Part shown: in pieces, positions 4,339 through 64,000 of the stretch
Position numbering within the stretch: the first letter of the stretch is position 1
Layout of the letters: each line of letters begins with the position of its first letter
Assembly (NCBI GenBank): GCA_015146655.1
Contig: VKHL01000131.1
Coordinates: 17,451 to 81,450 of the forward strand
Direction: 5' to 3'
Source of the DNA: Ochromonas danica
Taxonomy: Eukaryota > Sar > Chrysophyceae > Chromulinales > Chromulinaceae
DNA: 64,000 nucleotides
Position numbers and translations under genes: made by a program
Notes under the pieces: model-generated
What the model saw: only the letters and a program-made list of their open reading frames with translations
The model's database searches: none
Told to the model about the DNA's origin: nothing

Positions 4339-4570
4339 CTGAAGACGTTCGTTAGTTCTTGTGTTGGAGAAAAACTGAAAACAGGGTTTGAAGAGGGAGA
4401 AGCTGGAGTTATAAACAATAAACTACTACATTCTTGGGACGCCCGTTTCGACAACATCTTCCGATTCGGGCATTTTCATCGTCCAAAACTCGCATATTGC
4501 CTCTACAAAAGTCTCACCTGGACCTCGGCCACTTCAACGCATTCATTCAATCGAGGAAAATAAAAGCGAA
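4339..4570. promoter_or_regulatory. Putative bidirectional promoter (DRC8 / 738-aa protein)
   Basis: 232 bases separate the divergent start codons at 4338 (minus) and 4571 (plus). No TATA consensus stands out. The tract next to the plus start is CATTCATTCAATCGAGG. The call rests only on geometry. Confidence 0.4.
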
Positions 4571-18743: not shown

Positions 18744-19296
18744 ATGGAATTCAACTGGGAAGGAAGAAAGATAAAAGTGAATCTGGGTTATCTAAAAGCT
18801 ATAATTGATATATTTATTTATATCAATTATAGTTTTATTTAGATATTTGTATTTACTGTACGGTGTACGGTGCAATCCATGGGAAACAATCTGGCGTTTC
18901 AAACCTCGCATTAATCGAGTTGAAACACACTTTGCTCTATTAGAAAGTTCACTATTTCATGGAAAAGGGGCACTATTAAAACCCCTACTTTATGCCATTG
19001 AACATCTACTTTATGGAGAATAAAGTCCAAGTCCTACCCTCCCTCTCTGCTCTCAGTGCAGTGGCAGTTTGTCTGTCAAAGTCACAGCAACAACAACAAC
19101 TTCTTCTTATCATCGATATCATTAGATCTATCAATCAATCTTCCTCTCTCTCACACAGAGAAAATAAATAATATAAACAATAATAATAATAATAATCTAA
19201 TAATAATAATAATATTAATATAAATAGTAATAAATCAGGAGTGAGTGAGTTTCTTCTTCTTATCTTCTCCTGTGATTTTATCAAGAAAACACAAAC
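18744..19296. promoter_or_regulatory. Divergent intergenic region FkbM/formin with palindrome and AAT repeats
   Basis: The 553 bases lie between divergent starts. A perfect 14-bp inverted repeat (CTATAATTGATATA, loop TTTATT, TATATCAATTATAG) occupies 18799-18832, 56 bases upstream of the FkbM start. AT-rich trinucleotide repeats (AAT/ATT) fill 19163-19232, just upstream of the formin ATG. A 72-codon frame at 18805-19023 has no family resemblance. Confidence 0.5.
18799..18832. repeat. Perfect 14-bp inverted repeat
   Basis: Arms 18799-18812 and 18819-18832 are exact reverse complements with a 6-base loop. All are A/T-rich. It could be an operator-like site or merely a cruciform-prone AT tract upstream of the FkbM gene. 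Confidence 0.8.
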
Positions 19297-25200: not shown

Positions 25201-25532
25201 GTTAGTCACAGTATATCGTATGTTGGATAAGTAGTTGATTTGGGAGGTGCTAATACTATACTGTGTGTGTGTCTGTGTGTGTGTGTGTGTGTGTGTCTGT
25301 GTCTGTGTGTGTGTGTCTGTGTCTGTGTAGTTGTCGACAACGAAGTACACGAGCAGATAGTGCAAGTATGGCAAGCTACTTGATACAGAATGGTATGATG
25401 ACCAGTGCTAACCCTACGCCACCACCTGCTACTACCACTACCAAACCTACTACTACCACTACCAAGCCTGCGGTTACTACTGCTCCTCGTATCTTGGGAC
25501 GTCCCCCTTTTCGTGTTCCTACTTCTGCCTAG
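19297..25532 (+). CDS. Formin with GBD/FH3-like region, PH domain, triple LPEGAxRQKM motif and FH2
   Basis: Two exons, 19297-25196 and 25331-25532, joined in phase 2 (AG|T, Ser); 2,033 residues. Residues about 60-340 are helical and GBD/FH3-like (LNLKVLLSSANRDFMTSFL.., FLYEVLLCCKLVMNNAMG). A PH domain spans about 525-685 (WIQVVVLEQ, FLRDRWCVLDGEVLKLYPI, a 60-residue insert, then FEVVTSQEVFSIACRS and VEGWLLSLQAARDQ). Another helical block at 765-825 (VFQYLSHEVVASGKMPLLLN) looks like a continuation of the FH3 armadillo region. A coiled coil follows (about 910-1010). Three copies of KYxKxxKMKKMLPEGAxRQKM lie at about 1033, 1095 and 1150. FH2 runs about 1316-1890, with LKNLFWNKL, LISVLDSKRLQNVLIILGKL and GNYLNQGSSFGQAKGIRMDT. 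There is no long FH1, only IPPPPPP near 1137. Formins nucleate and elongate actin filaments. Poly-Gly runs and Thr/Asn tracts reflect trinucleotide expansion. Confidence 0.88.
25261..25328 (+). repeat. (TG)n tract inside the formin intron
   Basis: A TGTGTGTCTG... run fills the second half of the intron and ends directly at the TAG acceptor (25328-25330). No separate pyrimidine tract is present. Confidence 0.9.
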
Positions 25533-29424: not shown

Positions 29425-30341
29425 TTACATCACAGGTACAGGGGGGAAGGGCGATGGTCGAGCACGAGGCTTTATTTTCATCATTAGTCCATTCTCCGTA
29501 TGAATAGTAGCTCCTAACACAAAGAACAGAAGTCACAGTCAAGACCCAACAGATGAGAAGCACAAAGAGGATTGGGTTTTACCTGTTCGCATACCCACTT
29601 TATCGACAGGAATGGCAAGCTCAAGATCAAAGCGTTGCAAGATCAAAGCAATGCAAGTAATCGACTCCATAAATGCAAAGGTATCTCCAACACATTTACG
29701 AGATCCACCACCAAAGGGCAGGAATGCGTAATTGGCATTCACTTCATTGGGATAGAGTTGTTTATGAAGAACACTGAAGGAAGAGAATCCTTCCCAACCA
29801 ATATTCTCTGCATCTTCCTCTTTCAATTGCGTCTGTTGTTGTGGTTTCGCGGCGGCGGCGGCTTCATTGGTGGTGGCAGTTTGGTGATGGACAGGACATC
29901 CTGCCGCTGAACTCTCCGAGGAATGAATAGGACATTTCTTCTTCTCCTCCGCTGGACCACTCACAGAGGAGCCTTTGTTACCTTCTTCTTCATTCCCTTT
30001 ATAATAAGCAAAGGCACCTGGAGAGCGATCTTTCAAGAATCTGTCTGGATTGAAGACATCAGGTTCATCCCAAAGTAAAGGTGATCGATGCATATTGTAA
30101 GTGGACAAGAAGATGTCTGTTCCTTTAGGAACATAGATGACATCATTTCCACTTTGCTCTGCTGTCTTGCCGTTGTAAAGATGTTGATTGTGATAGTTTG
30201 GTAAGACATCATCTTCCAAAGCACGACGAATGAGTAAAGGAGGTTCGGGATAGAGTCGCAAGGTCTCTGCTAAACATAAACGAATTGTTGGCAAGCGCAT
30301 GACATCGTCATAGGTTGGCAAACGACCCTATGACATATAAC

Positions 30342-30388
<47 letters not shown>

Positions 30389-31437
30389 CAAGCTCACAGT
30401 TGATAGATAGAGAGATAAAGACAAGTGTAATCTAACCTGCAAGACATTATCAATCTCATCTTGTACACGATAATACCATGTTTTGTTCTTAGCCAATTCG
30501 AAAAATGTCCAAGTCAAGACAGCTGCTGTTGTTTCATGTCCAGCTACAAGCATTGTCATGAGATCATCACGTAGTTGATGTGAAGAAGCATCCTCTCCTC
30601 GCATATCCACGAGAAAGCGTAATAGAGAAGGATATTGACGAGCATCTGGATGACTCTACAGGACATCATCACATCATATCAAATCATGAGCTGAGCTTAG
30701 CACCCACAACGACCAAATCTCAAGGTTATTCTTACCTGTCGAGCATCTTCTGTTGCCTTCTCCACACGTTTCTCCCAATCATCTACATCACCTAATTGTT
30801 GACTAGCAAAAGCTTTCTCAATTAACTCATCCAACACTTCATTCAACATCTTCATATTATCTTCAAACTCCTTCAATTGTGGGAACAGTCGATTAGCGAA
30901 AGGTAAAGACCAATAAGGAATAAAGGATGTAGAACGATGTTCTGCTTCTTGTAAAGCACGATAGACAGCTTTTACAATGGGTGACGTACGAGCCACAGAA
31001 TTAAACTCATAGTTAAACACTGCCTTGCCTAATCATCAAATCACAGTGTATGACTCTCACAGTTAGTACATGTCTTTCTCTCAGCATTCATTCATTCTCC
31101 ACTTACCAATAACATCCAGTGAGACGGAACAAAACTCTGTCTCCATATTAATCGAACCATCTGCTCTTTGTATTTCTTGTAATTTACGAAGAAGAGGAAT
31201 ATTACAATCTACAAAGAGTGACATCTACAAAAACAACAAAATAGAATCGTTTGAATCTGTTATGATGATTGTAACAATAGGTCTAATAGAGTATATTATG
31301 TCACTAACCATAGAGTTCAGCCATGCTCGATGAAAGCCTGGAACAATAGCCTTGCGACGAACTTTCCACGTCTCTGGATCAGCTGGAATCAATCCTTTAC
31401 CCATGATTGGCTTCAAAATCTCAGCTAGAATACCTAT

Positions 31438-31474
<37 letters not shown>

Positions 31475-32303
31475 GAAGCAGAGACAGTGTCAACACAAGA
31501 TATCTTGTCATTCTTAGCTCATCATCATTCTTATCATTACCTTTATCATAGCGTAATGGCTTCTCCTTCAAAATATGTTTTGCCATAACAGGATCAGAAA
31601 TGACAAGAAATGACTTTGGACCAAATGCTAATTTGAAAACAGGTCCATATTGTTGATAATAACCTTGTAATAGAAGGAATAAAGGACCTCCAGCTAATTC
31701 AGCTAAATTACCATCCAAGATACGTGCTAAGAAATGAAAGAAATTACCACGAAAGGTATTAACACCTTGTACCATGGGAGCACCATCTAATGACTTGATT
31801 AGACCAAATTGTTGGAATAAATTGGATGCAAGAATTCTCCATCCATCCCATGGATAGACGACAGGTGTGTCCTCTGGATTACGATATTCTGGTCTCCATA
31901 GTGTCATTCGTAATGGTGAGAAGGATGGACCTTCTTCGAAGAATCTTCTTGCACGTTCTAATTGCCAATCAAATCCACTTTGATATCCTTCCCATGCTTC
32001 TTCAATGACTGGTTGACTAGCATCAACATAAGGAGCATGAATCTCATTTGGTAGAAGAGGTTCACGACGTTTTTTCAACATTGTTGTTGTTGTTGTGGTG
32101 GTGGTTGTAACTTGTTCCTCTTGTACTACTTTCATTTGTAATCGATGAAAGAGTATATTAGTTTTAGGAGATAGATAACTACTCCTTGGTCTCCATCCTT
32201 TTGCATGAAACCAAGTCAATTGACAAAAGATGTAGATTATGATATAGAGATGGTAATGATGGTAACGATGATTATGACGTGAACCTTGTAGTAAAGAATG
32301 CAT
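29425..32303 (-). CDS. CYP97: CYP97-like cytochrome P450 (carotenoid ring hydroxylase), copy 1
   Basis: Seven exons on the minus strand: 32303-31541, 31433-31309, 31224-31107, 31028-30736, 30655-30437, 30327-29583, 29513-29425; 783 residues, all joins in frame. P450 landmarks are the I-helix [12 protein letters not shown] (471-482), the K-helix [16 protein letters not shown] (ExxR at 527-530), the PERF-like FNPDRF, and the heme loop [11 protein letters not shown] (Cys718) followed by VGDTFAFME. The combination of [15 protein letters not shown] and FGGGxRKCVGDxFAxME is characteristic of CYP97 (LUT1/LUT5), which hydroxylate carotene rings in plastids. The N-terminus has a hydrophobic segment ([14 protein letters not shown]), compatible with entry to the ER and plastid. 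A roughly 70-residue insertion before the heme loop carries two Cys-Pro motifs (KCPIH, GCPVH) absent from copy 2. Intron 1 and intron 5 end in TG repeats. Confidence 0.88.
30343..30385 (-). repeat. (TG)n tract in intron 5 of P450-1
   Basis: The CA run on the plus strand is a TG run in the transcript. It sits within 20 bases of the 3' splice site at 30328-30329. Confidence 0.9.
31441..31470 (-). repeat. (TG)n tract in intron 1 of P450-1
   Basis: A 30-base TG run in the transcript, ending 6 bases before the 3' splice AG (31434-31435). Confidence 0.9.
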
Positions 32304-33345
32304 CAAAAAATCAAATTATTTATGCAATTTTTAGCACTAATACAAGCAAAAGCAAAAGCAAGAATAGACACCAATAGAATTGGATTGTCGTGGAAGGGGG
32401 TAGTAGTAGTAGAATCAGAATAATACGAATTTAACTGATTCTTTGAAATTCAACTCTATCCAATGTCAAGCAAGACAGAGAGAATAAGATAGACTGACTA
32501 GAGGAGAGTTGCAATGCAAGCAATAGACTAGACTAGTAGCAGCAGACAGGGAGAGACAGGGGCGAGAGAGGAAGAAGTTGCAGTCTTGTTGGTGTTGATT
32601 GCAATTGGACGTTCTAAGATTGGACTGCATCATGGACCACACCGGCCACTTCCCTCCTGGGGGAGACTTAATAGTCGGTATTTACTTGTTTGACAGGTGA
32701 GATGATGGGGTTTTCTAATTCCGTCTGCTCACTCAGACACACACACTTGTGACTCACTCACTCAGTGGAAGGAGGGAGAAAGGGTTGGTTGATAGGTTGG
32801 TGTAGACAATGTGGCATGTCAGTTCAGTTTCCAAACAGAAATTAGATATAGATATAGTCTGTTTTGGGAATTGAAAGAAGCTTTGGATTATATAAATAGA
32901 ATGGTAATTAAATTACAATAACTAGCTAGACTAATATGCATTACGATAGGTGATAGAGCTAGCTAGTTCCTAATCCAACCTAACCTTCTAATTCATCTAT
33001 TATAGTAATTGATGTTAATAATCCATAGAAGCATATATATCAGATGTAGCTATAGTAAGGAGGGTTTTCATCAAACAAAGTACGAGTTAAAACTCTGAAA
33101 AGATGAGATTTGACCTGTCCGTCCATGCCATGCATACCATGCCTCAGCGCCTCTTTGTCTCCATTGAGGTTGACATTGCCAGGTTGCTCCAAATCCTTTC
33201 CCTTTGCCTGCCATTGCCTTTGCTTGCCTTTGCTTGCCTTGCCTTGCAACTGCTTCTTCCTTTGCCTTGCAAGCCTTGCAAAAATCCACTGCAAGGATAT
33301 CTTCTTCTCTATTAATCTATTATTATCATAATAACAACGACAATA
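32304..33345. promoter_or_regulatory. Shared upstream region of the divergent P450 pair
   Basis: About 1.04 kb between the ATGs of the two head-to-head CYP97-like genes. It contains a TTGCCTTTGCTTGCC-type repetitive tract at 33206-33285, close to the copy 2 start, and CACACACTTGTGACTCACTCACTC at about 32740. No exon is supported. Open frames over 33040-33423 are products of the repetitive tract. Co-regulation, for example by light, is a guess from geometry. Confidence 0.45.
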
Positions 33346-34053
33346 ATGTTTCTTCTTCCTTTTGCTTTCTTCATTGTCATTGTAATTGTTTGCAAGGCAT
33401 TTCAATTGCCACAACAACAACAACTACTACTACCAAGAATAACAACAACTACTACTACAAAGATCTTTCAACAACAACAACAACGACGACAAAGATGTCA
33501 AACTAAAATGGAAATCTTTGAAGGAAATCCTTTTGGTTTAAAAGTTTGGAATACAGTCTGGAAGCTTCCATTCCTCCAACACAGTGAACCAGGTATCTCC
33601 CCTACTGCCTTCGGAGATGCTGCACAAGTTATCAAACATAATATCTTACAAATCTATGGAAATGAAACAAGTTATGATGGTGCACCAATAGCACAAGGTG
33701 AAATTGATGGTTTATTAGAAGGTTCATTATATTTAGGATTAAAAGAATATCAAGAACGTGTAAGTCCCCACATGCACACTGACACTGACATAGACGCATA
33801 CACACACTGTACTGTGTCTCTCTTGGTAGTTGATTACTAATGAATGCCTTTGTAATGCTTTGGTTTGGTTTGTTTTGGTTTAGTTTGGTTCGTTCTATAA
33901 GCTAGTCTTTGGTCCAAAATCATTTATTGTGATTTCTGATCCTGCTGCTGTACGACATATTTTACGTGATACTTTCCGCTTCTATGACAAGGTAGGTAAC
34001 CATCACCATCACCATCATCATTATTCGCTATAGAAGACATCATGCTAACCGCG

Positions 34054-34111
<58 letters not shown>

Positions 34112-35737
34112 CATAGGGAGTGTTAGCAGAGATTTTAAAACCCATTATGGGTAAAGGACTTATTCCTGCTGATCCTGAAACATGGAGAATACGTAAGAAG
34201 GCAATTGCACCAGGATTTCATCGTGCTTGGTATAATGCCATGTGTAAGACATTTACTAACTGTATGGAACCTTTATATAATAAACTTGCTCGAGCTTCTG
34301 AGACTGGTGAAGTTATTAATATGGAGATTGAGTTTTGCTCTGTCTCCTTGGACATTATTGGTAAGACGACCCCATAGACTATAATGGTAACTTCTTCATT
34401 TGTCATCATTATGTTTGAATGCTATGATATGATACTAGGCAAGGCTGTCTTTAATTATGAGTTTGGTTCTGTTACTAATGAATCACCTGTTGTACGAGCT
34501 GTCTACTCTGCTCTCAAAGAGGTTAGTCATCGATGATGATGATCTAGTCGATCTAGTATGATGACTGATATCTTGTGGTAATGTGTTTGCTCCTATAGGC
34601 GGAGCATCGTTCGATGATTCCTTTCCCTTATTGGGATCTTCCCTTTGCTAATCAATTAGTACCACGTTTACGTAAATTTAATGCTGATTTGAAGATCTTA
34701 AATGATGTCCTTAATAAACTCATTGAAGAGGCATTACTCTCTGCTAATAAAGGCGATGCTGAGGTACAGTATATATACACTACACACTTACCCTTTCTCC
34801 TTCTACCTACTGTACCTTATCAGAGAGCAATAGCTAACATATCCTTTGTTATACTCATATATATCAGGAGCTAGAGAATCGTGACTATGAGACGATGGCT
34901 AATCCATCTCTCTTACGCTTTCTTGTTGATATGAGAGGAGAAGATGTTACGTCACATCAACTACGTGATGATCTCATGACAATGCTTGTAGCTGGACATG
35001 AAACAACAGCAGCTGTCTTAAATTGGGCACTATTTGAAATTGTACAACAACCTGAATTACTCAAGAAGTTAAGGAAAGAAATTGATGAAGTCTTTGGTCC
35101 TTATGATGCTAATCAAACAACGATGAAGACAGACTATATCATGCGTATTGATGATATGATGAAGTTACCATTAACTCGTATGTGTTTAACAGAATCATTA
35201 CGTATGTATCCTGAACCACCATTATTAATTCGACGTGCTTTAGTTGATCATGAAATTCCTATTAACCCCAAGAAGATGAAAGTGAATCCTTATGGTGTAG
35301 AGAAGTTAAAGATTATGCGAGGAGCTGATCTTTTCATTTCATTATATAATATACATCGTTCAGAAGAATATTGGAAAGATCCTAATACTTTTAATCCTGA
35401 ACGTTTCTATGAAAATGTTATACCAAAAGAGATTGATCAGACAGAGAAAGAAGAAACAACATGGCATGGTTATCAAGTTAATCCAAGTATCTTCACGAGT
35501 GCATTATATCCTAATGAAGTACATGCTGATTATGCTTTCTTACCATTTGGTGCAGGTGCAAGAAAATGTGTTGGTGATCAATTTGCTTTCATGGAAGCTA
35601 CTATCATCTTATCTAACTTGATTCGTAACTTTGATTTCGAGTTTGCTATTGATCCGAAAGAAGTGGGTACTTTTACAGGAGCAACGATTCATACTCGTAA
35701 TGGATTACCATTTCGTATTCATCGTCGTAAGGCTTGA
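33346..35737 (+). CDS. CYP97: CYP97-like cytochrome P450 (carotenoid ring hydroxylase), copy 2
   Basis: Six exons: 33346-33759, 33884-33991, 34117-34360, 34439-34521, 34599-34763, 34868-35737; 627 residues, all joins in frame. Residues 1-17 are a signal peptide followed by CKA^FQLP, which fits the Phe-containing plastid cleavage site. Landmarks are [12 protein letters not shown] (380-391), [16 protein letters not shown] (ExxR at 447-450), NPERF, and [11 protein letters not shown] (Cys572) VGDQFAFME. It is clearly paralogous to copy 1: [20 protein letters not shown] in copy 1 against [19 protein letters not shown] here, and the endings TGATIHT(E/R)NGL. It lacks the Cys-Pro insertion of copy 1. 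Predicted role is hydroxylation of carotenoid rings on the route to xanthophylls. CYP97 enzymes are about 500-600 residues, so this copy is close to normal length. Confidence 0.9.
34055..34109 (+). repeat. (TG)n tract in intron 2 of P450-2
   Basis: A 55-base TG run ending 7 bases before the TAG acceptor (34114-34116). It lies in the intron that corresponds in position to intron 1 of copy 1. Confidence 0.95.
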
Positions 35738-50621: not shown

Positions 50622-53430
50622 TCAGTACTTATGTCGACCAAAGCCTGTTCCCCCACTGAGCTGACTGCCTCCACCTAGGTTGCTATTGTTACCCATATTA
50701 CTACCAGCATTACTGTTGTTGGTGTTATTGTTATTGGTGTTGTTAGTCATCACACCAAACTGAGCAAGACGACCAAATCTTGATGCTCCTGCACCACCAC
50801 CACCTCCTCCTCCTCCGCCACCATAGGCATTTGATCCCATGCCACTATTGTTATTGTTGAAAGCAGACGAAGTACCACCACCACCACCTCCTAATGGCAT
50901 GGCATTAAGATCATGTAGATTGCGTAACAGACTATTCCCTCCTCCTCCTCCTCCTCCCATACCTCCTCCTCCAAAGTTACCCAATGGTCTAGAAGCCATA
51001 GAATTAGTTGTCGAGTTCGTCGAAGGCTGTAGAAAGGAAGACAGGATATCTCCATTACCACCCCCTGCACCACCGCCACCATAACGTGGTGCTGCATTAC
51101 TACCACCCATCCCTCCTCCTGCTCCTCCTCCACCACCACCACCCATGGAAATATTGGTATTGGATTGTATTCCAGGTTGATAACGAGCTTGTTTAGTATA
51201 TCTAAACCATATCAAAACAATGAGAATGAATGAAACAGAAAGAGAATATGAGATTAGATGGTCCTTACCGACTAACTTCATCCATGGCATTGTTAGTGTT
51301 ATTAATACCTCCAAACGTATTGATTGATGATGGATTAGCATTTGCTAAACCACCACTACCATTACCAAGTCCACCACCAGTCTTAGCACTGGTTGTACCT
51401 AAACCTAATAATGAGTTAATCTCTTGTAAACCATATTCATCATGTTGTTCTTCTTCTTTCTTCTTTCCTCCATGATGAGAAGCAGAGATAAGACTTGGTT
51501 GATACTCTCCTCCTCCTGCTAGACCGCTTCCAATTGGATTGTTATTAACAACATTATTGTTGTTGTTGTTATATAAACTTTGCATTGAAACAGGTTCACC
51601 TGCTAATTTCTTTTGAACATATACACCTTGTGTACGTGCTGGTTCAATAATTTCATGTAATAGATTGACTTCTTCAGGAACAATATGGTGATTCCCATTA
51701 TTGTTATTATTATTATCCATGGAGGATGATTGTTCTCTTTGTAAAGCTCGACTTTCTTCCAGTAATTCAGCTTCTGATTTCTGTAAAGGACGACGTGTAA
51801 ATGTCGAAGCAGCTGCTGGGACAGTGACAGTGACAGGACCACTACCACCACCACCACCAGATGTAGCAGATGAAACTTGTTCAGGATTGGATAATGGAGC
51901 AGGTAAAGAGTTATTCACCTAAAGCATATCATCATTAGACCATCTGTTTAGACATGTCAAACAAAGGAGGGTTTATAGTACTTACTTGAAAGAAAGAATA
52001 CTGTAAGACTTGTGAAGCTGTTGGTCGTTGTTGAGGATCATATAATAACAAATCCTATAGACACATACATATGAACGAACAATGAGATCAACAAGGTAAA
52101 CAGACACACACCCAGTACACACACAGACACATGTACACAGACACACACACCCAGTACACACACAGACACATGTACATACACAGACACACAGACACACAGA
52201 CACACAGACACAGACACACACACACACACACAGTACACACCCAGTACACAAACCCAGTACACACACAGACACATGTACACAGACACACACACACACACAC
52301 ACACACAAAACAATGTCATAAAGCTAACCTGTAGAAGTTGTAGTCCTTCAGGCGAAGCATGGGGAACTATCTGTCCCAATGGAGTGGGCACAAACTGTGG
52401 AAAGCGAAATTGCATTTGAGCTGCAAGTTTCATACCTTCTGGCCATGAACGCATGGTAGGAGAGCCTAAAATAGCACAGATCTTATAGATTTCATCTGCT
52501 TCTGATGAACCAGGAAAGAGAGGTCGAAGAGTATACAATTCTGCTAGAATGCCTCCACATGCCCATTGATCAATAGGTGAGTTATAATTAGGAGAACGTA
52601 GTAAGACTTCTGGTGCACGATACCTAATAAGCACAACAATTCATTAACAACAATCACCATCGAGATGAACACACACACACAACACAGTAATAATGGTAAT
52701 GGTAATAGTCTAACCATCTCGTAGAGACATAATCGGTAAATGGTGGTTTTGATCGAATCTCACGTGCCAATCCAAAATCTGCTACTTTAACAATATCTCC
52801 CTTTACTAACATATTTTCTGGTTTAATATCCCGATGGAAAAACCCATGCTTATGCATAAAGGCTAAACCTTGAAAGATCTGATACATGATATTACGAATA
52901 TGTGATTCAGGGAAAAGTCGATCACGTTGTTTCATCAACTCATAAAGATTTCCTTCCATATATTCAAAGACAAAGAAAAGTTCATCATTTTCACGAATAA
53001 CTTCACGAAGTTTGATGATATTTGGATGGTTTAACTTCTTCAAACTCTAATAGCATGACAACAACAGCAACAATAACAACGACAACAACAACAGTAATGT
53101 GTGTTAGTGTGATTTACAATCACTTTAACATCAATTAGATTACCTTGATCTCTCTTAACTGCATACATTCTTCCCAATTATAAAACTTCTTCTTCATTTT
53201 CTTAATAGCCATCTAGATCATTTCCATTCCCAAACAACAACAACAACGACAACAACAACCAGACGATAAGATAAGACAACAAGACTGTTAGTGAGTAATG
53301 AACGACACCATGAGATTTGCCTGAGGGACATAGTCTCACTTACCACTTCTCCACTCTGACGATTTACAGCTTTAAGGACAGATCCATAAGTACCATCACC
53401 CAGTTGTTTGGTGACCTTATAGCGGTTCAT
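50622..53430 (-). CDS. MAK: MAK/ICK/LF4-type (RCK) protein kinase, cilium length regulator family
   Basis: Seven exons on the minus strand: 53430-53344, 53212-53144, 53046-52715, 52623-52329, 52054-51986, 51918-51269, 51201-50622; 693 residues. The kinase domain (residues 4-290) is complete: glycine loop [12 protein letters not shown], Lys33 in [23 protein letters not shown] 123-125, DFG 142-144, activation loop TDY (156-158) then [20 protein letters not shown], and the family's [32 protein letters not shown] and the TDY loop identify the RCK group (human MAK/ICK, Chlamydomonas LF4, worm DYF-5) rather than MAPK or CDK. These kinases restrain flagellar length through intraflagellar transport. 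The C-terminal 400 residues are Gly/Asn/Ser low complexity. Intron 4 is packed with TG-type repeats. Confidence 0.92.
52102..52307 (-). repeat. (TG)n-rich array within kinase intron 4
   Basis: Interrupted CA/CAGTACACAC/CAGACACATGTA repeats on the plus strand (TG in the transcript) fill about three quarters of a 274-base intron. Unlike the other introns, the array starts near the donor and stops about 45 bases short of the acceptor. Confidence 0.9.
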
Positions 53431-54383: not shown

Positions 54384-57300
54384 ATGACAACTTCTCCCTG
54401 CTGCTTTCATCGTCTTGTTTTCTTCATTTATTTTCTTCTTCTTCTAGGGAAGACTTATGAAGGTCCAGCTGATTCATCATCAGTCTATGGTGGTAACAAT
54501 CCTGTCTTCACGGTGGCGGGGTATACCGATGACACTGTTGACAGACTTGCCAAGAAGATGGATATCCCAGCGAGTGTTGCCTCATTAACCTATCCTACTG
54601 CATTTCATTTTGATGGCCAGGGAAATATCTATATCGCAGATAAGACTGCTATCTGGCTGTATAATGCTAGCACAACTACGATGAGCATCTTCATTGGTGG
54701 TGGTATTGATCAGATTGGGGAAGGAGTAGTAGCCACTGATGTTGCGATAACAGATACTCGAGGAGTAACAGGTGATAGTTATGGAAATATCTATTACAGT
54801 GATTTTGAAAGATGTGTCGTGCGAAAATATGATATTACTCTAGGCAGAGTCTCAACAGTTGTTGGTGTGCTTGATGACTGTAATGATCGTGCACGAAATG
54901 GAGACTTTGTTTTGAGCGACGTTCGGCTTAATCGTCCATGGGGAATCTTTTACTCTGAATTAACCCAATCTCTGTTTATTGCTGTGAGTGCTTCTAACTA
55001 TGTCTTGGAGGTTGATTTCAACGGTGGTGTCGGCACGGCCAGGTTTGTCCTAGGACAATGGTCAAGCACTGGTGGGAACAGTCCAAGTAATGACCTAGCA
55101 CTGTTCACAATAATGAGAAAGCCTATTGCAGTCTTCGTTCGTAAAGATGGGGCTTCCAATACGTTATATTGTGTAGATTCTGGTGGTAACCTAGTCCGCA
55201 CAGTTGCGTTGGGAAGTGGTGCCAATGCCTTCATCGCTATCGGCAAAGCCGGCTCTTCTGGTTCGTCGGGCGCCGATGGACAATCGCCAACAGACACTAG
55301 CATTAACCAACCGATATGCGCAGCTGTGAATTCAGTTGGAGATCTGCTTGTTGTCGAATCTTCCAATATTATTCGTCGAGCATCGGCTTCTGATTCAAAA
55401 GTATATACAATAAGCGACATTGCTGCTTACGTTATAGGATCTAAGATGCCAACATCAACTGTTAATTTCACTACAATATTGGGCTGTGGATTGGATTATG
55501 ATGATAATCTCGTTGTATCCTCGCAAGTCGGCTCTACAATAATCATCTGGAAGATTGTTACACCATCTCTTGATGGTTCGCGAGTGGAGGCTCTTGTGGG
55601 CTACATGGGTGGAGTTACTATTCCAGCTCAGTGGCTACCTTTAAGTACTGGCGGTAATATTGCCATGTGGTCAGATACTCGGAAGAACCTGTACGTGGTT
55701 GATGGTGTTTCTAATGGAGTTCACAAGATTGATACGACTACTAATACATCATCGTACTATGCTGGTGGGTTAATTGGAGGATATGATGGTGGTGGATTGG
55801 CAGCGACATTGAGTAGAATGAATGCTCCCAATCAAATTGTAGGTGATACCCTGGGCAATCTTTATATCTATGATAGCAAGAATGCGATGATTCGAACAGT
55901 CGGAACTGATGGCGCATTGTATGATTTAGCCGGCGGTGGTATTATATATGGAGTGCATGCAATGGCTTATGATTCAAGTCGTAATTGCCTCTATTTGGGG
56001 CGAGAAGGGTTTGCTCAAAAATTAGATATTGCAGGTGATCGGTTAGGGTTATTTTTTACTGCTCAACTGACCCATACTGCTTCGAGCTTTTGGGTGGATT
56101 CATTCTTTAACGTATATGCTACGGATATTCTAACTACCACGTTAGTCCATTATCTCAATATTAGTGGCAACGCAATGAAGAACATTCCGTATTATTCTTC
56201 TCCATTTACGAATAATCCCCTCTGTTGTCCTATCGTGACACTTTGTGGTGATTACCTCAACAATCTCTACATAATGTATGACAACTTCTCTTCTATTATG
56301 ATGATCGACTTTCAGAGTAAGCATACTTCCAACGTCTTCGGAAGCAGTGATAAACAGCTGGCAACAGTAATACCAGGTGAATTTGTACGTCCTACTGCAG
56401 CCATCAAATTCCCAGTTGCATGTTATTCTGACACTCGTTCCAACTCTTTCTACTTCGCTGAAGTTATTGGACAGAATGCAAGAATAAGAGCGCAGTTGAG
56501 AGGTTTTCCTGTTACAGCAAGTCCTTCAATGTCACCAACTAAAAAACCTACACCTCAACCTTCCGTTCGACCATCAGGTCAACCATCAGGACAACCATCT
56601 GCCCAACCTTCTGGTCAACCATCAGGACAACCTTCTAACCATCCTTCAGGTCAGCCTTCCAGCCAGCCGAGTATGGTAACTCCTCCGACTGTTCCATTTA
56701 CCAAGTACATCAAACCGTTGGCAGGGCTACCAACGGATGGACATTTTGGAGATGGAGGTCCTCTACGAGAGACTTTCCTCGAATCTCCTGGTGGCATTTA
56801 TGTAGATACCTTGGGCAATCTATACATAATGGATGTACACCATCTTCGAATAGTGAATGCTACTACTAATTTGATTTCCACTTTAGCTGGGGGAGGCAAT
56901 TCGTCAGAAAGTGAAATCCCTGGGCACCAGATGGAGATTGCCTCAGGTTGGGGAATAACTGGAGATCTGGAAGGAAATATTTACTTTTCCGATCGCACAC
57001 GACATCAAGTCTTTCTTTACAGACCTTCAACTGGCCTGGTTTTAGCCGTCGTGGGAATCAATAGACAGCTTGGATATTCAGGAGACGGAGGTGCTCCTTC
57101 CTCTGCGATGCTCAATGCGCCGTTTGGCCTATTCTATTATGATGTACGCCAGTTGTTATATATTGCAGATACGAGTAACAATGTTATCCGATATGTTGAT
57201 TTTGCGGTGACAAACACCATTGAAACGTTGTCTGTCAATTCAGTCGATCCTTCTTTGGCGACGAGTTTTCTGAATCCAGTGGATGTTTGGGTAGGTACGA

Positions 57301-60300
57301 TGAACGATGTGCTTTATATTGCCGATTCCGGGCAAAGTCGCATTGTCCAGGTTAACCTCGGCAGTAACTACATGATAGTGGTTGCAGGCAATGGCACTAA
57401 TCTGAGGAGCTCGTTGACAAGTCCTGAGTTGTATGCCAGGGAGTTGACAGGGAGTATTGTGGCAACATCCGGTGCTATTCATCGTCCACGTTGTGTTTGC
57501 GGTGATGCATATGGTAATATCTACTTCAGCCAGGTCTTGAATCAAGGCTTCTATCGTGTCAACCTTCCCACAGGTAAATTGACTAGAATAGCGGGAAATC
57601 GGGATAGTGTTCTTCGTATGACAAATGCATCAGCTACAAGTGTTTTGCTTGGAGGGACTGTGTCATCATGCAAAATTGGCGTAAACGGTGATCTGTTCTA
57701 TTTGGACGATGGTCAAGGCAGTACTACAAAAGGTGCTATTTGGAAGATCTTCTCTGCTTCTTTTGCGACCCCGACAAACAAGCGTATAGAAGTATTGCGG
57801 GGTTATGTCAGAGGGGTCAGCTTGCCTTCGACCAGTGTTTCCTTGGGTTGCATTGCGTCTATTTGGGGAGATGATTTGGGACATTCCCTTTACCTCGCTG
57901 ATCCTTGTAGCTCAATCATACATAGAATCCAATTGTCTGATCAGTCTATTTCCATTTATGCTGGGACTGGTGTTCGTCGCAACAGCAAAGATCAATACAA
58001 TAGCACCCAATCGGTGTCCATCACACCTCTCAACCAACCTATGGGAGTTGTGGGCAGTAATATACTAAATGACAAGAAGCTCTATTTCATTGACTATGCC
58101 AGTCATGCTGTCTATTCGATTGACCAAACTATCATGATGCTATCTGTTGTTCTCAATGGTAGCTTTGCTGAATGTGGAGATGTTAATGCTGCGTATAATG
58201 GGAATAGGCTTCTTTGCTATCCATTGGCATTAGCATTGGACGAGGAGCACCATTTCCTCTATGTAGCAGATAGTAGATACCGAGTTCAACGAGTGGATTT
58301 AACTACTTCGACAGTCACTGTCTTGATAGGCAATGGCACTTTGGGTTATCGAGACGGCATCGTACCCTCACCTCTGACATTAGTTGGCAGTCCTGCAGTG
58401 CTTGTTTCTCATGTGAACAGCATGTGGTTCCACAGTCAAAACGGAGAGTCCTTCTTATACTTGTCAGACTATGAGAATCGAGTAGTTCGAAAGGTTGACT
58501 TGCAATCGTTTAATGTCTCCACTGTCCTAGGCAAGGGCCAAGGAAAAGAAAGCATGTTTTACCATGATCGTCTTCAAGCGGGTAATAAGGCATACTTAGC
58601 GGGAATAAGGGGTCTATGCGGTGACCATGCAAGCAATCAGTTGTATCTGCTGGATGATGCCAATCGTACTTTACTGGCTTTACCTTCTGTGAATGCATCT
58701 TATTACATTCAGTTGATAATGGAGTCATCGCCTATTCAAGGCAATGCTGAAAGTGATGATAGTGGCTTGAAATTGGCTTCCGAGGCGTCGATGGGTCAGG
58801 GGCAAGCTTGCTTTGTCAACCATCAAGGAGATCTGTATCTGGGTGATTATGTACCACAATTGAGTTTAGCGAGGGTGAGGGTGGTTTCTGACTTTACTCC
58901 TTCCAGTCAACCTTCGAGTGAACCATCTGCCGAACCTTCGAGTCAGCCCACCGGTCAACCGTCTGGTCAACCCACCCTTGAGCCGTCTGTATCTCCCTCT
59001 CAGCCTAACCTTGCTTCCTCCAGGTTGCTGACAACGGTTGCAGGCTATAAGACTCTTTCAGGACCAACTGATAACAGTGCTATTACTGCGAGCTTCACTA
59101 GCATTGGTGGTGTGTGTATGAATGACCTGGGACACATCTATATTGCAGATGATGTAGTGGTCAAGAAGATCTCCCCAGAGTCCAACTCAATCATCCTCTA
59201 CGCTGGAGGAGGTTCAAATATGGGAACAGCAGGGAGTATAACTGGGACTCCAGTATTTAGTAAGAAATTCGGTAAAATTGGAGGGCTGGCGGTGGATGAA
59301 CAGGATAGGGTCTATGTGTCAGACAACGGTGCTTTTAGTCGTATTTATGTGATCGACCCAACAACAATGTTGGTCTATACCGTTGCAGGTTTGGGGACGG
59401 CAGGATATACAGGAGATAACAATGCCGCCAGTCAGGCTAGGTTGAACAAACCCAGTGGTTTATTTTATCATCGTCCCAGCCATATCCTCTATGTGGCTGA
59501 TGCTGGTAACCACTTGGTCCGTAGTGTGGACTTGAGTACAAGTTTTAATGATGTATCTACAATGGGCTCATCCATTATTAAAACAGTGGTTGGTTCAGAC
59601 GGGGAGATTAGATCGATCTGGGTGTCTGCTGCGGGTGATATCTTCCTAACAGATGCAACACAGTGCTCTGTATATAAGTATAATCGTGGCGGTGATGTTA
59701 TTAACCGAGTGGTAGGGAATGGCACATGTTCATCTTCTGTTATTCCTGCTAACTCTTCTGTTTCAGCAACAAACATTTCCTTACAAACAATAGTGTCGAT
59801 CACAGGCAGTGATGATGAAGGCACTCTTTATGTGAGTCCCAACGATGCCAATGGGCTACGTAGAGTTAACCTTTCTTCTCTCTCAATGGAGCGTGTGACT
59901 GCTTCCTCGGATAGCTTAGTGGTTGGTCATGATCTTCCAGCCATTATTGAGAAGGTGTCTGCTTCGTATTGCTTCTATTATAACAAACGTGAGTCTGGCG
60001 AAATCAATAGTAACAATACAATGATAATTGCTGATACTGTACAAAAGTACATTTGGCGGTATCGTCCCGATACAAGGAAGATGGAAGTAATAACAGGGTT
60101 TGTTGGTGGGCTGTCTGTGCGAGCCAATTCCGTCAATTTGGGTTTAATTGCTGGGATGGCGGTTAATAGAGCAAATGGTGATTTGTACCTGGTAGATGCA
60201 ACTAAAAACTATGCTTATCTGGTTAAGAAGCAGCACTCTGGAACGATGATTTCGATTATGGCTGGTACTGGATTCGCTGGTTACAATGGTGATGACCAAC

Positions 60301-63300
60301 CTGCTTCTTTGGCAGCTCTAAATAACCCGATGAGTATTGTAATAGACGCTCGACAGGGCGATCTCTACATCAGCGAGTCATTAAATAATCGTGTTCGTAA
60401 GATTGATGGGAATACAATGAATATATCTACTGTAATGGGCACTGGATTCTCAACTTGTGATTCCTCCCTAGTAACCTATCGAGGTCCTGCCACTTCTTTG
60501 AATCTGTGCAATCCATTGGGATTAGCTATGGACAGCAGAAAGGGTGTGTTGTATTATAGTGATAGTTCCTATGTAATTCGCAAACTATCGCTGAATAATG
60601 GGACGATTGAGACGATTGCTGGGAATGGTCACAGTGGATATCTTAATGGTGGGTTATTGACAAGCCAGATTGGAAACATCTATTTCATGATGCTTAGTCA
60701 TGATGGGAACTCGATCTACGTCTTCGATGTTGATTACCATTGTGTTCGCTTGGTGGAACTTGTCCAAGATCGCATTACAACTGTTGTTGGTCAATGCGGT
60801 ACTTCAGGCTACAGCGAGGATGGAGTAAGCGCGAGTGTTGCAGTTTTGAAGGCTCCACGAGCTGGTAGTTTGGATGCTGAAGGGAATCTCTACATCTTTA
60901 CCTGGAATGCTGGCGTTCATTATGTTCTGAGAAGTTATTCTCAACGTCTGTATCGTTTTGTTAGCAACAGCGGTGTTTATGGGTTTTCTGGTGACGATCA
61001 ACCGCCTTTATCTTCATTAACTTCCAGTAGTCCAGCCTCTCTTATTGTGGATGGGGATGTATACTTTTCGGAGTATTACGTACAAAGCGGGGATATAACA
61101 ATTGGCAGGGTGCGAAGAACTTATTCTATTGAGCCCACCTCTCTCCCCACCGCACAACCATCATCATTTCCCACCGCATATCCCTCTTCCCAACCTTCCT
61201 CGTCCCCATCAACCAACCCTTCCTCACAACCCAGTACTCGACCCTCGGGCCAGCCTTCTGCTCAACCCTCAGGCCATCCTTCCTCTCACCCATCTTCATC
61301 TCCATCAACTAACCCTTCTTCCCAACCCAGTACTCAACCCTCAGGCCATCCTTCCTCTCACCCATCCTCATCTCCATCAACCACCCCCTCTTCCCAACCC
61401 AGCACTCAACCCTCGGGCCAGCCTTCTGCTCAACCCTCAGGCCATCCTTCCTCTCACCCATCCTCATCTCCATCAACTACCCCCTCTTCCCAACCCAGTA
61501 CTCAACCCTCAGGCCACCCTTCCTCTCACCCATCCTCATCTCCATCAACCACCCCCTCTTCCCAACCCAGTACTCGACCCTCGGGCCAGCCTTCTGCTCA
61601 ACCCTCAGGCCATCCTTCCTCTCACCCATCCTCATCTCCATCAACTACCCCTTCTTCCCAACCCAGTACTCAACCCTCGGGCCAACCTGTTGCTCAACTG
61701 CCCTCTTGCCCATCAACTAACCCTTCTTCCCATCCCAGTTCTGAACCTTCGGGTCAACCTTCTTCGCTGCCATCTTCCTTTACCAAGCCTTCTTGTCTCA
61801 CAAGTTCACCATCTGCTCAATCGTTCCCTCCTTCATTGAACATCCCTTCCATTCAACCTTCATCCTCAGCATCATCTCAGCAGCCTTCAGCTCTGTCGTC
61901 AGCTTATCCAACAAGAGAAGATTCGTCACAACCGTCAAGCAGTGTTTGCTCGCCAACTCGAGGACCCTCTACCTCCATGACAGCGCAGCCCACATCTCCA
62001 ACCCAAGCACCCTCGTTGCATACAACAGCACCAACAAGTTCTCCACAATCAGGAGAGCCTACTTCGTTCTCCTCTCCAAGCTTGGCTCCCAGCACTTCAT
62101 GTCCTATTAGCGAACTGTCTTTGCAGCCAAGCTTTTCTCCTTCTCTTCACCCATCCACATATCAGCCTTCCATTCAACCCAGTGTTAGTCCAGTGGTCCA
62201 ACTTAGCGAGCGTCCTTTTGTGTTTTCTTCTCAGCTCTCCATCTTATCTGCTGTGTTCAGCTGGGATGGCTTGCAAGTCTACGTGACCTTCTCGGCTCCC
62301 ACCAACATGTTGGAGTTATCTTCAGGGATGAGCTTTGTGTGTGACAAGGTCTTCGTGTTCAGCGATGCCAATTCATACACTTGTCTGTGGCGAAATGCAA
62401 GCCAAGCGATCATTCGTGACACTACGAGGAGTTCTCTGTGGGTTGGATCGACGATCCAGTTGGTTGATGTGAAGAATGGCAATGTCTTGAAAATCAGCTG
62501 TTCTTCTGCTATGTCTTGGTCCATCTGTCCGAATACAGTGGTGGATTCCGAGGCCTCTGTAACTATTGCAGGTCCACAGGCTCCTATTCTTCCCTCTATT
62601 GGCTCTTTTGTCACTTCCAGGATAAGTAACTGCAGTTCATGGCAACTGGATTTGTCTGTAGGCAGTGTTGTGACAGGAAATGCTGGGAGGTCATGGAGAA
62701 GTGCGACTTTTCATGTGCAGGGTTTGACCTATAGCTCCAATACATCCGCTATAACAAGAGAACTCTATGCACAATTCGCTGTGCCATCGTCTTTGTTAGT
62801 GATAGGTAGCAATTATCTGACTAGTGGGGAGACCTACTTGGTGAGTGTGACTTTGTGCAATTTCTTGAATGCTTGTGCATCCAGGGAGTTGACGACCACT
62901 GTTTCCGATTCTTCCAACTCTCTTCCCCCTTTTGTCTCGATAACGGGTGGTGATGTATCTCGCAGCATCTTTGTGAGCGAGTCCTTGTTGTTGACGGCGG
63001 ATGCCTACCTCTTGCAGTGTCATGGAAAGACCAGCGCATCGGGGCTTAGCTATCTTTGGCGAATGAAACTAACTTCTTCAGCATCTTGGTTGTCAGTGAG
63101 ATCGCAATCAAAGGACGAGAAGAAGCTTCTTCTTGCTGCTTATTCTCTGTCTGCAGACATGACATATCTGGCCCAAGTGACTGTGAAGGACAAAGTCAGT
63201 TCTCTATCAACCTCGGTCAATGTTTCGATTGCCGTGCGATCAGCTGACTTGGTGGCGGTCATCTCGCTTCCATCTCCTCAGCAAGTGAGGATTGGTTCTA

Positions 63301-64000
63301 GTGGCTTGTTGCTGAATGCATCCTCAAGCTATGACCCTAACACAGTGGGAAAGGTTCCAGCAACTCGATTATCTTTTCTGTGGTCTTGTCGATCTTGGTC
63401 TGCTGTTGGAGGGATTCTGCTGCCTTCTTGCAGTTTGATAGTACAGTCTGCTTCAATGGGTGGCGGCTCATCGTTGGCAACTTCTGCAGTGAAGGTTTCA
63501 GCCACTAATGAGAGCTCAGTTGGGAGCCTCTCTGTTGTAAGTGTGACAGTGTATGATGCTTCCAAGCCCAGTCGAAAGAATAGTACGGCTCGCATGGAAG
63601 TGACAGTGATCGCAAGTGCCGCTCCTTTACTCAGCATGTTTCCATCTCCATCCGATATAGTCTCTTCCTTGGCTTATGTCAATATCGATCGAGAAGTGAC
63701 CCTCACGTCCACAGTGCTTTCTCCTGTCTATCGTTGCAATGCTTCGTGGTCTGTGAATGACCGTAGTTTGGATATTGAGAAGATGATCTCTTCAGCGTAC
63801 CCAAAGAGTGTGCTTGCAAATCACTTGACCTATGTCAATTTGCACTTGTCAGCCTTCTCCTTGGTAGGTGGGTCCACATACACCTTCAGTCTCTCGTGCC
63901 AGACGATATCGGATGCAAGGTCATCAGGAAGGCGCTTGGCAAGCTTAGACACTTCAGTCAATAGCTCTGTCTCCATTCAAGTGTCGACCAACAATCCTCC
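54384..64000 (+). CDS. Giant secreted NHL-propeller / PSxxPS-linker / REJ-like protein (3' end beyond window)
   Basis: From the ATG at 54384 the frame stays open to the last base: 3,205 codons, no stop, no intron. Residues 1-26 are a signal peptide (CCFHRLVFFIYFLLLLG). Three NHL-like beta-propeller regions follow at about 31-710, 773-1502 and 1548-2241. Repeats such as GNIYIAD, LYVADAGNHLVRSVDL and AGYTGDN-A-A-LN-P-G recur, the last being the standard NHL insert loop. Linkers of P-S-x-x tetrads separate them: residues 713-771 (PSGQPSGQPSAQ..), 1504-1546, and a long one at about 2245-2605. The rest (2613-3205) is beta-sandwich-like, including a REJ/PKD-type stretch at 2954-3085 (LLNASSSYDPN ... 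LSFLWSCRSW). REJ proteins often end in a GPS site and membrane helices, which would lie beyond the window. Probable cell-surface or extracellular-matrix protein; the linkers may be heavily glycosylated. Confidence 0.85.
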   Translation, partial: MTTSPCCFHRLVFFIYFLLLLGKTYEGPADSSSVYGGNNPVFTVAGYTDDTVDRLAKKMDIPASVASLTYPTAFHFDGQGNIYIADKTAIWLYNASTTTMSIFIGGGIDQIGEGVVATDVAITDTRGVTGDSYGNIYYSDFERCVVRKYDITLGRVSTVVGVLDDCNDRARNGDFVLSDVRLNRPWGIFYSELTQSLFIAVSASNYVLEVDFNGGVGTARFVLGQWSSTGGNSPSNDLALFTIMRKPIAVFVRKDGASNTLYCVDSGGNLVRTVALGSGANAFIAIGKAGSSGSSGADGQSPTDTSINQPICAAVNSVGDLLVVESSNIIRRASASDSKVYTISDIAAYVIGSKMPTSTVNFTTILGCGLDYDDNLVVSSQVGSTIIIWKIVTPSLDGSRVEALVGYMGGVTIPAQWLPLSTGGNIAMWSDTRKNLYVVDGVSNGVHKIDTTTNTSSYYAGGLIGGYDGGGLAATLSRMNAPNQIVGDTLGNLYIYDSKNAMIRTVGTDGALYDLAGGGIIYGVHAMAYDSSRNCLYLGREGFAQKLDIAGDRLGLFFTAQLTHTASSFWVDSFFNVYATDILTTTLVHYLNISGNAMKNIPYYSSPFTNNPLCCPIVTLCGDYLNNLYIMYDNFSSIMMIDFQSKHTSNVFGSSDKQLATVIPGEFVRPTAAIKFPVACYSDTRSNSFYFAEVIGQNARIRAQLRGFPVTASPSMSPTKKPTPQPSVRPSGQPSGQPSAQPSGQPSGQPSNHPSGQPSSQPSMVTPPTVPFTKYIKPLAGLPTDGHFGDGGPLRETFLESPGGIYVDTLGNLYIMDVHHLRIVNATTNLISTLAGGGNSSESEIPGHQMEIASGWGITGDLEGNIYFSDRTRHQVFLYRPSTGLVLAVVGINRQLGYSGDGGAPSSAMLNAPFGLFYYDVRQLLYIADTSNNVIRYVDFAVTNTIETLSVNSVDPSLATSFLNPVDVWVGTMNDVLYIADSGQSRIVQVNLGSNYMIVVAGNGTNLRSSLTSPELYARELTGSIVATSGAIHRPRCVCGDAYGNIYFSQVLNQGFYRVNLPTGKLTRIAGNRDSVLRMTNASATSVLLGGTVSSCKIGVNGDLFYLDDGQGSTTKGAIWKIFSASFATPTNKRIEVLRGYVRGVSLPSTSVSLGCIASIWGDDLGHSLYLADPCSSIIHRIQLSDQSISIYAGTGVRRNSKDQYNSTQSVSITPLNQPMGVVGSNILNDKKLYFIDYASHAVYSIDQTIMMLSVVLNGSFAECGDVNAAYNGNRLLCYPLALALDEEHHFLYVADSRYRVQRVDLTTSTVTVLIGNGTLGYRDGIVPSPLTLVGSPAVLVSHVNSMWFHSQNGESFLYLSDYENRVVRKVDLQSFNVSTVLGKGQGKESMFYHDRLQAGNKAYLAGIRGLCGDHASNQLYLLDDANRTLLALPSVNASYYIQLIMESSPIQGNAESDDSGLKLASEASMGQGQACFVNHQGDLYLGDYVPQLSLARVRVVSDFTPSSQPSSEPSAEPSSQPTGQPSGQPTLEPSVSPSQPNLASSRLLTTVAGYKTLSGPTDNSAITASFTSIGGVCMNDLGHIYIADDVVVKKISPESNSIILYAGGGSNMGTAGSITGTPVFSKKFGKIGGLAVDEQDRVYVSDNGAFSRIYVIDPTTMLVYTVAGLGTAGYTGDNNAASQARLNKPSGLFYHRPSHILYVADAGNHLVRSVDLSTSFNDVSTMGSSIIKTVVGSDGEIRSIWVSAAGDIFLTDATQCSVYKYNRGGDVINRVVGNGTCSSSVIPANSSVSATNISLQTIVSITGSDDEGTLYVSPNDANGLRRVNLSSLSMERVTASSDSLVVGHDLPAIIEKVSASYCFYYNKRESGEINSNNTMIIADTVQKYIWRYRPDTRKMEVITGFVGGLSVRANSVNLGLIAGMAVNRANGDLYLVDATKNYAYLVKKQHSGTMISIMAGTGFAGYNGDDQPASLAALNNPMSIVIDARQGDLYISESLNNRVRKIDGNTMNISTVMGTGFSTCDSSLVTYRGPATSLNLCNPLGLAMDSRKGVLYYSDSSYVIRKLSLNNGTIETIAGNGHSGYLNGGLLTSQIGNIYFMMLSHDGNSIYVFDVDYHCVRLVELVQDRITTVVGQCGTSGYSEDGVSASVAVLKAPRAGSLDAEGNLYIFTWNAGVHYVLRSYSQRLYRFVSNSGVYGFSGDDQPPLSSLTSSSPASLIVDGDVYFSEYYVQSGDITIGRVRRTYSIEPTSLPTAQPSSFPTAYPSSQPSSSPSTNPSSQPSTRPSGQPSAQPSGHPSSHPSSSPSTNPSSQPSTQPSGHPSSHPSSSPSTTPSSQPSTQPSGQPSAQPSGHPSSHPSSSPSTTPSSQPSTQPSGHPSSHPSSSPSTTPSSQPSTRPSGQPSAQPSGHPSSHPSSSPSTTPSSQPSTQPSGQPVAQLPSCPSTNPSSHPSSEPSGQPSSLPSSFTKPSCLTSSPSAQSFPPSLNIPSIQPSSSASSQQPSALSSAYPTREDSSQPSSSVCSPTRGPSTSMTAQPTSPTQAPSLHTTAPTSSPQSGEPTSFSSPSLAPSTSCPISELSLQPSFSPSLHPSTYQPSIQPSVSPVVQLSERPFVFSSQLSILSAVFSWDGLQVYVTFSAPTNMLELSSGMSFVCDKVFVFSDANSYTCLWRNASQAIIRDTTRSSLWVGSTIQLVDVKNGNVLKISCSSAMSWSICPNTVVDSEASVTIAGPQAPILPSIGSFVTSRISNCSSWQLDLSVGSVVTGNAGRSWRSATFHVQGLTYSSNTSAITRELYAQFAVPSSLLVIGSNYLTSGETYLVSVTLCNFLNACASRELTTTVSDSSNSLPPFVSITGGDVSRSIFVSESLLLTADAYLLQCHGKTSASGLSYLWRMKLTSSASWLSVRSQSKDEKKLLLAAYSLSADMTYLAQVTVKDKVSSLSTSVNVSIAVRSADLVAVISLPSPQQVRIGSSGLLLNASSSYDPNTVGKVPATRLSFLWSCRSWSAVGGILLPSCSLIVQSASMGGGSSLATSAVKVSATNESSVGSLSVVSVTVYDASKPSRKNSTARMEVTVIASAAPLLSMFPSPSDIVSSLAYVNIDREVTLTSTVLSPVYRCNASWSVNDRSLDIEKMISSAYPKSVLANHLTYVNLHLSAFSLVGGSTYTFSLSCQTISDARSSGRRLASLDTSVNSSVSIQVSTNNP
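56520..56696 (+). repeat. PSxx linker 1 of the giant protein
   Basis: Codons 713-771 encode about nine P-S-x-x tetrads (PSGQ, PSAQ, PSNH, PSSQ). It separates the first and second propeller regions. Confidence 0.85.
58893..59022 (+). repeat. PSxx linker 2 of the giant protein
   Basis: Codons 1504-1546 encode PSSQPSSEPSAEPSSQ and similar tetrads between the second and third propeller regions. Confidence 0.85.
61118..62200 (+). repeat. PSxx linker 3 with alternating 96/72-bp DNA repeats
   Basis: About 360 codons of P-S-x-x tetrads. Within it five DNA units follow each other exactly: 61227-61322 (96 bp), 61323-61394 (72), 61395-61490 (96), 61491-61562 (72), 61563-61658 (96). Long and short units differ by one 24-bp insert (GGGCCAGCCTTCTGCTCAAC..), so the true period is 168 bp. 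After 61730 the repeats degenerate. Confidence 0.9.
63240..63640 (+). other. REJ/PKD-like region of the giant protein
   Basis: LLLNASSSYDPN, about 14 further residues and LSFLWSCRSW, then a Cys about 13 residues on, match the (L)DASxSxDPD...LxYxWxC pattern of REJ (receptor for egg jelly) and PKD modules. The assignment is by motif only. Confidence 0.55.

Follow-up and report, generated by a model that had tools for sequence, protein, structure and literature searches.

REJ proteins of the sea urchin have a known role in gamete recognition. Adhesion GPCRs unite a GPS with a 7tm_2 domain, LRP5/6 carry two propellers in tandem, and the teneurins possess a YD-repeat shell together with other teneurin domains. 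The REJ domain is said to define the PKD1/REJ family, whose members have between one and 11 membrane helices, with TM6-11 forming a channel in many of them; further marks of the family are PKD repeats, a GPS domain with its cleavage motif ahead of TM1 and a PLAT domain after TM1; SpREJ10 is without a GPS and PLAT is present in only five of the ten sea-urchin members, as set out in the part of PMC1934368 drawn on here. In the same source the REJ genes of the sea urchin number ten, and REJ-bearing PKD1 proteins of humans four. The described protein that comes nearest to the one reported here is Esi0130_0068 of Ectocarpus, which likewise belongs to the surface of a stramenopile alga and has REJ together with seven (or six) predicted membrane helices. 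Unlike the Ochromonas paralogues described below, this protein, of 1,427 residues with a 976-residue ectodomain, has a reported GPS domain and a match to the polycystin channel; the term NHL has a count of zero in the main text of that paper, and our comparison is with the description (PMC4700764, in part).

Our analysis of an Ochromonas danica locus points, with moderate confidence, to an adhesion or recognition receptor of the cell surface in which evolving propeller heads would be mounted on a conserved transducer of REJ and seven helices, a prediction made from sequence with the membrane end taken from paralogues. A giant multidomain ectodomain, REJ and a multi-pass membrane end are common to this protein and to PKD1/SpREJ, but the latter have 11 helices and lectin domains in place of the seven predicted helices (of the paralogues) and the NHL propellers found here (PMC1934368, in part). 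They differ also in that GPS, PLAT and PKD_channel are unmatched in the Ochromonas paralogue tested; for PKD repeats there is a single, sub-threshold match (14.6 bits against a cut-off of 23.5 in the window protein). The NHL propeller is shared with the teneurins and the teneurin-like protein TLP (9ifo), the best PDB match both by sequence and by the fold of a half-region, but here the propellers are probably paired and REJ and seven helices are added; at E values up to 1, Pfam matched TEN_NHL and NHL in the window protein and no other teneurin domain. Adhesion GPCRs differ in that neither GPS nor the 7tm families are matched in the Ochromonas paralogues tested. Tandem propellers of the LRP5/6 type gave the top-ranked structural match to the 684-residue model, but at a global TM-score of only 0.26 and from a different repeat family. 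Among the open-access papers listed on REJ or NHL in algae, protists and stramenopiles, none has a title or opening of an abstract that sets out the NHL-REJ combination, which is weak evidence of novelty; the words REJ, polycystin, NHL, GPS, egg jelly and PKD are absent from the main text of a study of Phytophthora zoospore membranes (PMC12223298, in part).

The window, meaning the whole 64,000-nucleotide stretch that was analysed, lies at C131:17451-81450 in a 31.19-Mb assembly of 337 contigs. The contig is 81,450 bases long and ends exactly where the window ends, so the receptor frame is cut by the assembly. The original prediction of a single stop-free frame from 54384 to the end of the window is borne out: the frame has no stop through 63998, whether it is counted from ATG 54384 (3205 codons) or from the in-frame upstream ATG 54363, the first (3212 codons), and the window's last codon still belongs to it. 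The N-terminus, MTTSPCCFHRLVFFIYFLLLLG, is the only strong hydrophobic stretch in the window protein, and it is on hydropathy that we call it signal-like. Pfam matches to TEN_NHL (1.7e-25), NHL (1.1e-16) and the PT repeat (2.6e-29) accompany it. With its signal-like start, NHL regions, PSxxPS linkers and REJ (Table 1), the protein thus agrees with the secreted modular protein that had been foreseen. Probably the gene has a single exon and the window frame supplies its N-terminal two thirds; residue 3205 of the window protein is aligned to residue 1725 of the 3,387 in the paralogue C9b, giving a full protein of roughly 4,870 residues by paralogy.

The surroundings of the gene had been described as rich in introns, and the one neighbour that we looked at, a divergently oriented protein kinase gene on the opposite strand about 1 kb upstream of the receptor (window 52041-53429), visibly has several GT...AG introns. 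Elsewhere in the window a formin is encoded in one 1,984-codon frame (19276-25230) with FH2 and Diaphanous GTPase-binding domains and a CCDC53 match between them, and pieces of cytochrome P450 are scattered over 29542-35734 (29542-30327 and, weakly, 31440-32315 on the minus strand; 34838-35734 on the plus strand).

Table 1. Features of the receptor frame, in window positions
Feature	Position	Strand	Evidence
Signal-like N-terminus	54384..54461	+	Single hydrophobic peak; similar start in paralogues C9b and C234
NHL cassette p1, probably double propeller	54492..56504	+	TEN_NHL 36.4 bits; 81% identical to C234 cassette 1
PSxxPS linker 1	56523..56678	+	Tetrad scan; PT repeat
NHL cassette p2, probably double propeller	56706..58892	+	TEN_NHL 47.2 bits, NHL 29 bits
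PSxxPS linker 2	58899..59006	+	DNA comparison with C234 and C9b; tetrad scan
NHL cassette p3, modelled as 12 blades	59019..61133	+	NHL 58.7 bits, TEN_NHL 48.3 bits; AlphaFold models; Foldseek
Long PSxxPS stalk	61134..61781	+	Tetrad scan; PS-rich to about 62270 by eye
REJ domain (PF02010), N-terminal part, runs past contig end	63036..63611	+	42.2 bits, E 5.3e-10, profile 11-199

Each of the three NHL regions, of about 700 residues, passes the TEN_NHL cut-off of 27.1 bits when scored separately. Region 3 (684 residues), folded by AlphaFold from an alignment of the three window regions, was predicted to form 12 four-stranded blades, the twelfth of them incomplete (mean pLDDT 59, pTM 0.46), and its first half by itself (374 residues) formed six such blades (pLDDT 66.5, pTM 0.73). 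When the whole model was submitted to Foldseek the top-ranked match was LRP6 E1E2 (8ffe; E 5.1e-18), which we take to be a propeller tandem; global TM-scores were 0.20-0.46 among the matches listed, and the arrangement of the two halves is therefore not established by them. The first half matched the teneurin-like protein 9ifo best (query TM 0.60, 24% identity), and the designed six-bladed protein Pizza6 at target TM 0.72-0.86 among the matches listed. The propeller fold expected from the sequence is thus supported by modelling, with blades predicted both in region 3 and in its first half. Since region 3 models as 12 blades and its first half as six, each NHL region is probably two six-bladed propellers, making six in the window protein, a reading that extends the region 3 models, built on three sequences, to the other regions. 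Of the "three NHL propellers" originally proposed, the three regions stand, each above the Pfam cut-off, but the propellers themselves are probably twice as many. Weak Pfam matches in region 3 (window 59034-61200) to CATSPERB_2nd (19.0 bits, cut-off 27) and Arylesterase (18.7 bits, cut-off 21.3) are probably due to a shared propeller fold. Relatives of the propeller alignment also occur in bacterial and archaeal genomes, where 305 pattern matches included 158 relatives, the best 80 of which are 25-37% identical over their best segments; 20 pattern matches in viral contigs included no relative.

The presence of PSxxPS linkers between the NHL regions was confirmed by the tetrad scan and the Pfam PT repeat. 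PDB matches of these linkers to the circumsporozoite protein and to OCM3 (9ufe) were set aside as low-complexity similarity and not homology. Taken together, the linkers and the REJ build suggest a stramenopile alga. The region beyond the stalk, described earlier as REJ-like, proved to hold a true REJ domain, found by a six-frame search of the genome at a score well above the cut-off of 25 bits; hmmscan of the window protein and its pieces did not report REJ, though the six-frame search did. The window protein ends at VSTNNP, where the paralogue continues with NNPPTGGRLSVSPSSG. In C9b REJ scores 90.3 and 96.5 bits, the latter over profile positions 16-429 (C9:296418-297713), and in P0003, a paralogue stretch that covers the same region and more, it matches at 1.3e-25 over the same profile positions.

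What lies beyond the contig end was read from paralogues. The REJ-side part of the protein has 29 matches in the genome, and C9b (C9:292185-302348), a frame of 3,387 codons from stop to stop, is 85-86% identical to the window gene across the shared REJ part; its length is uncertain because a 10-N scaffold gap sits in its PS linker. Beyond the homology with the window, C9b has the rest of REJ, an EGF-like cysteine segment (seen by eye and without a Pfam match), a cysteine-rich juxtamembrane region and a membrane part. For the first six members of the alignment, of which two are near-identical, averaged hydropathy has ten runs above 1.3 that resolve into seven segments; this count could be wrong, because the last two hydrophobic segments adjoin. 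The seven predicted helices are followed in the paralogues by a Ser/acidic tail, and the loop between segments 2 and 3 contains invariant cysteines, as would fit an outside loop. A frame that is cut at its own contig end, on C258, may or may not be the 3' part of the window gene.

The original suggestion of a GPS/7TM or channel end outside the window holds in so far as a multi-pass end is predicted by paralogy, but GPS and channel domains are not supported in the paralogue tested. Up to E 10 neither GPS nor PLAT was matched in P0003, PKD_channel was likewise unmatched there, and at E values up to 10 the 7tm families drew no match in P0003 or in eight aligned members. The motif HL[ST], at which GPS cleavage occurs, is absent from the juxtamembrane stretch in all seven paralogues compared, and cleavage-driven signalling as in PKD1 is thus not supported. 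Genome searches for GPS and PLAT gave no matches, but the control genomes were silent too, so these searches do not show absence. Scanned up to E 10, the membrane module in its eight members drew eight Pfam families, each in a single member, the best being DUF4518 (E 0.0022; cut-offs were shown for member 1 only), and a PDB profile search gave one match at chance level (E 0.17). By sequence comparison, then, the module is without a convincing Pfam match and, with the PDB match at chance level, signalling by it would rest on topology. A PKD1-like order of the first five helices, judged against what we take to be the order in PKD1, was considered and set aside: the PDB profile search brought up no chain of PKD1, and the likeness remains one of topology.

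What had been taken for a singular protein turned out to be a member of a large family. Counts of large families are lower bounds here; thus a C9b cassette that is 79% identical to p3 is absent from the list of TEN_NHL matches. REJ occurs in at least 33 open frames, 32 of which have at least 2,000 codons and the longest 7,637, and the membrane module in at least 41 (37 of them with 1,400 codons or more; weaker matches are in many cases partial). Frames of 1,400 codons or more with REJ or the membrane module number at least 50, and occupy 459 kb or about 1.5% of the genome. The two modules are found together in at least 19 frames, six of which also have a TEN_NHL match, that of C280 falling below the cut-off. 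One of the paralogues, C9:244613-263278, is a gapless frame (no N) of 6,221 codons with five NHL cassettes, REJ and the membrane module. Haplotypes or duplication in the assembly may account for some pairs: C144 and C210 have equal REJ scores, and two facing genes at C285:1-17150 share 99.5% of their DNA sequence across the 2,000 codons that were compared, though they differ in the last part of the tail. On the minus strand of C257 (10756-12769) a decayed copy survives as fragments interrupted by many in-frame stops. At C18:243040-256067, also on the minus strand, a 1,444-codon frame of repeats that by eye resemble propeller repeats of the SBBP type overlaps the start of an REJ-7TM frame in a different reading frame; an error in the sequence perhaps splits a single gene here.

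Cassette number varies among the window gene and its close relatives: three in C131 itself, two (p1 and p3) in C234 and one (p3) in C9b, at a dS of 0.19-0.24 in p1 and p3. No counterpart of p2 was found in C234 or C9b, and its best match is the third cassette of the 6,221-codon paralogue (37%). The five cassettes of that paralogue are by best match p1-like (32%), p3-like (31%), p2-like (37%), p3-like (38%) and p2-like (32%). Since all three types are present in this frame, loss in C234 and C9b seems likelier than gain in C131, a polarity that rests on one gene. The DNA of C9b matches bases 1-79 of the C131 frame, the signal-peptide DNA, and resumes at base 4554 (window 58937), while C234 matches up to base 2322 and again from base 4549 (window 58932). 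Both downstream joints are within linker 2; the upstream joints are outside the PS linkers, that of C9b just after the signal peptide and that of C234 past linker 1, at the start of p2. We offer tentatively, as a rather doubtful proposal, that the PSxxPS linkers serve as recombination joints at which as many as about fifty genes with a fixed REJ-7TM transducer would lose, gain or swap double-propeller heads, a combinatorial repertoire from which specificities for self and non-self or for prey might evolve rapidly.

Selection was assessed by pairwise NG86 dN/dS with bootstrap 95% ranges, p2 being left out for want of a close counterpart. The ratio was 0.56 (0.42-0.76) in p1, 0.39 (0.30-0.51) and 0.47 (0.36-0.62) in p3, 0.28 (0.20-0.43) and 0.25 (0.15-0.42) in REJ, 0.11 (0.05-0.20) in the juxtamembrane part and 0.24 (0.17-0.34) in the membrane part; none of these five regions exceeds 1 as a whole, and there is no sign of whole-region positive selection among them. 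Judged by these ratios every whole region compared is constrained, the propeller heads least, with overlapping ranges for p3 and REJ. On a finer scale, and in raw counts, dN exceeds dS in three of 21 overlapping 60-codon blocks of p1 and in single 100-codon blocks elsewhere (0.09/0.07 in the membrane part, for example). Along p1 dS ranges from 0 to 0.39, which suggests conversion between copies.

In the receptor that we propose, Pro/Ser-rich stalks would hold six propellers, and with them their binding surfaces, well away from the cell. When a ligand binds or pulls, REJ and the juxtamembrane region would relay this, as force or as conformational change, to the seven-helix module, whose long internal loops may receive the input and signal. 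Specificity would evolve as propeller cassettes are changed, lost or gained, with the transducer conserved, and the receptor would probably serve to recognise other cells or particles or to adhere to them; prey, a mating partner and self are the main options for its ligand.

That the propellers bind the surface of a partner gamete and that REJ/7TM triggers a fertilisation response is a reading we consider unlikely. The build of REJ and six or seven TM is shared with Esi0130_0068, which is male-gamete-specific, for which gamete recognition has been proposed and whose REJ has positively selected sites (PMC4700764, in part). The lesser constraint on the propellers agrees with such a role, but REJ in the Ochromonas family is without overall positive selection and at least as constrained (0.25-0.28) as the propellers (0.39-0.56), with ranges that partly overlap, and its 32 long frames exceed, in our judgement, what one mating system needs. 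A genome search for HAP2 gave no match, a weak objection as the control was silent too. The size of the family and its variable heads are in keeping with an adhesin by which a mixotrophic alga recognises prey or bacteria, the varied heads sorting particles for uptake, and we hold this to be possible, if somewhat improbable. Phagotrophic mixotrophs are common among algae of this kind, and the organism is a phototroph by its light-harvesting genes, which are many and fit the picture: the family has 47 matches in the genome, several being parts of the same gene. Four of these matches form a tandem array at C224:8673-16382, with equal scores and a spacing of 2,407 bases.

We think it quite unlikely that the protein is a force sensor of the flagellum or cell surface, in which REJ proteins would anchor the surface coat and gate PKD2-like channels distinct from themselves. 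The genome does have four PKD_channel frames of 813-1,424 codons (on C148, C27, C19 and C61), separate from the REJ genes, and human PKD1, when force is applied, unfolds step by step in its REJ part (PMC1934368, in part), but a tether needs no variety of heads. It is very improbable that the gene is a decaying or mis-assembled repeat without function. In favour of this are the C257 copy full of stops and the fact that seven of the 11 family frames inspected (C131, C321, C234, two on C285, C280 and C258) reach a contig end or a large gap; the other four (two on C9, C18 and C65) do not, three of them containing a 10-N gap. Against it are the 3,205 stop-free codons of the window frame, the gapless relative of 6,221 codons and a dN/dS below 1 in each whole region compared, with upper bootstrap bounds of 0.20-0.76.

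Apart from one candidate in a brown alga, REJ receptors have been known chiefly from the kidney and sperm of animals, and the photosynthetic genome described here would give them a second setting. If the protein is the recognition receptor that we favour, its close paralogues, which carry different numbers of heads, may serve as natural variants in which the specificity of the heads can be tested.
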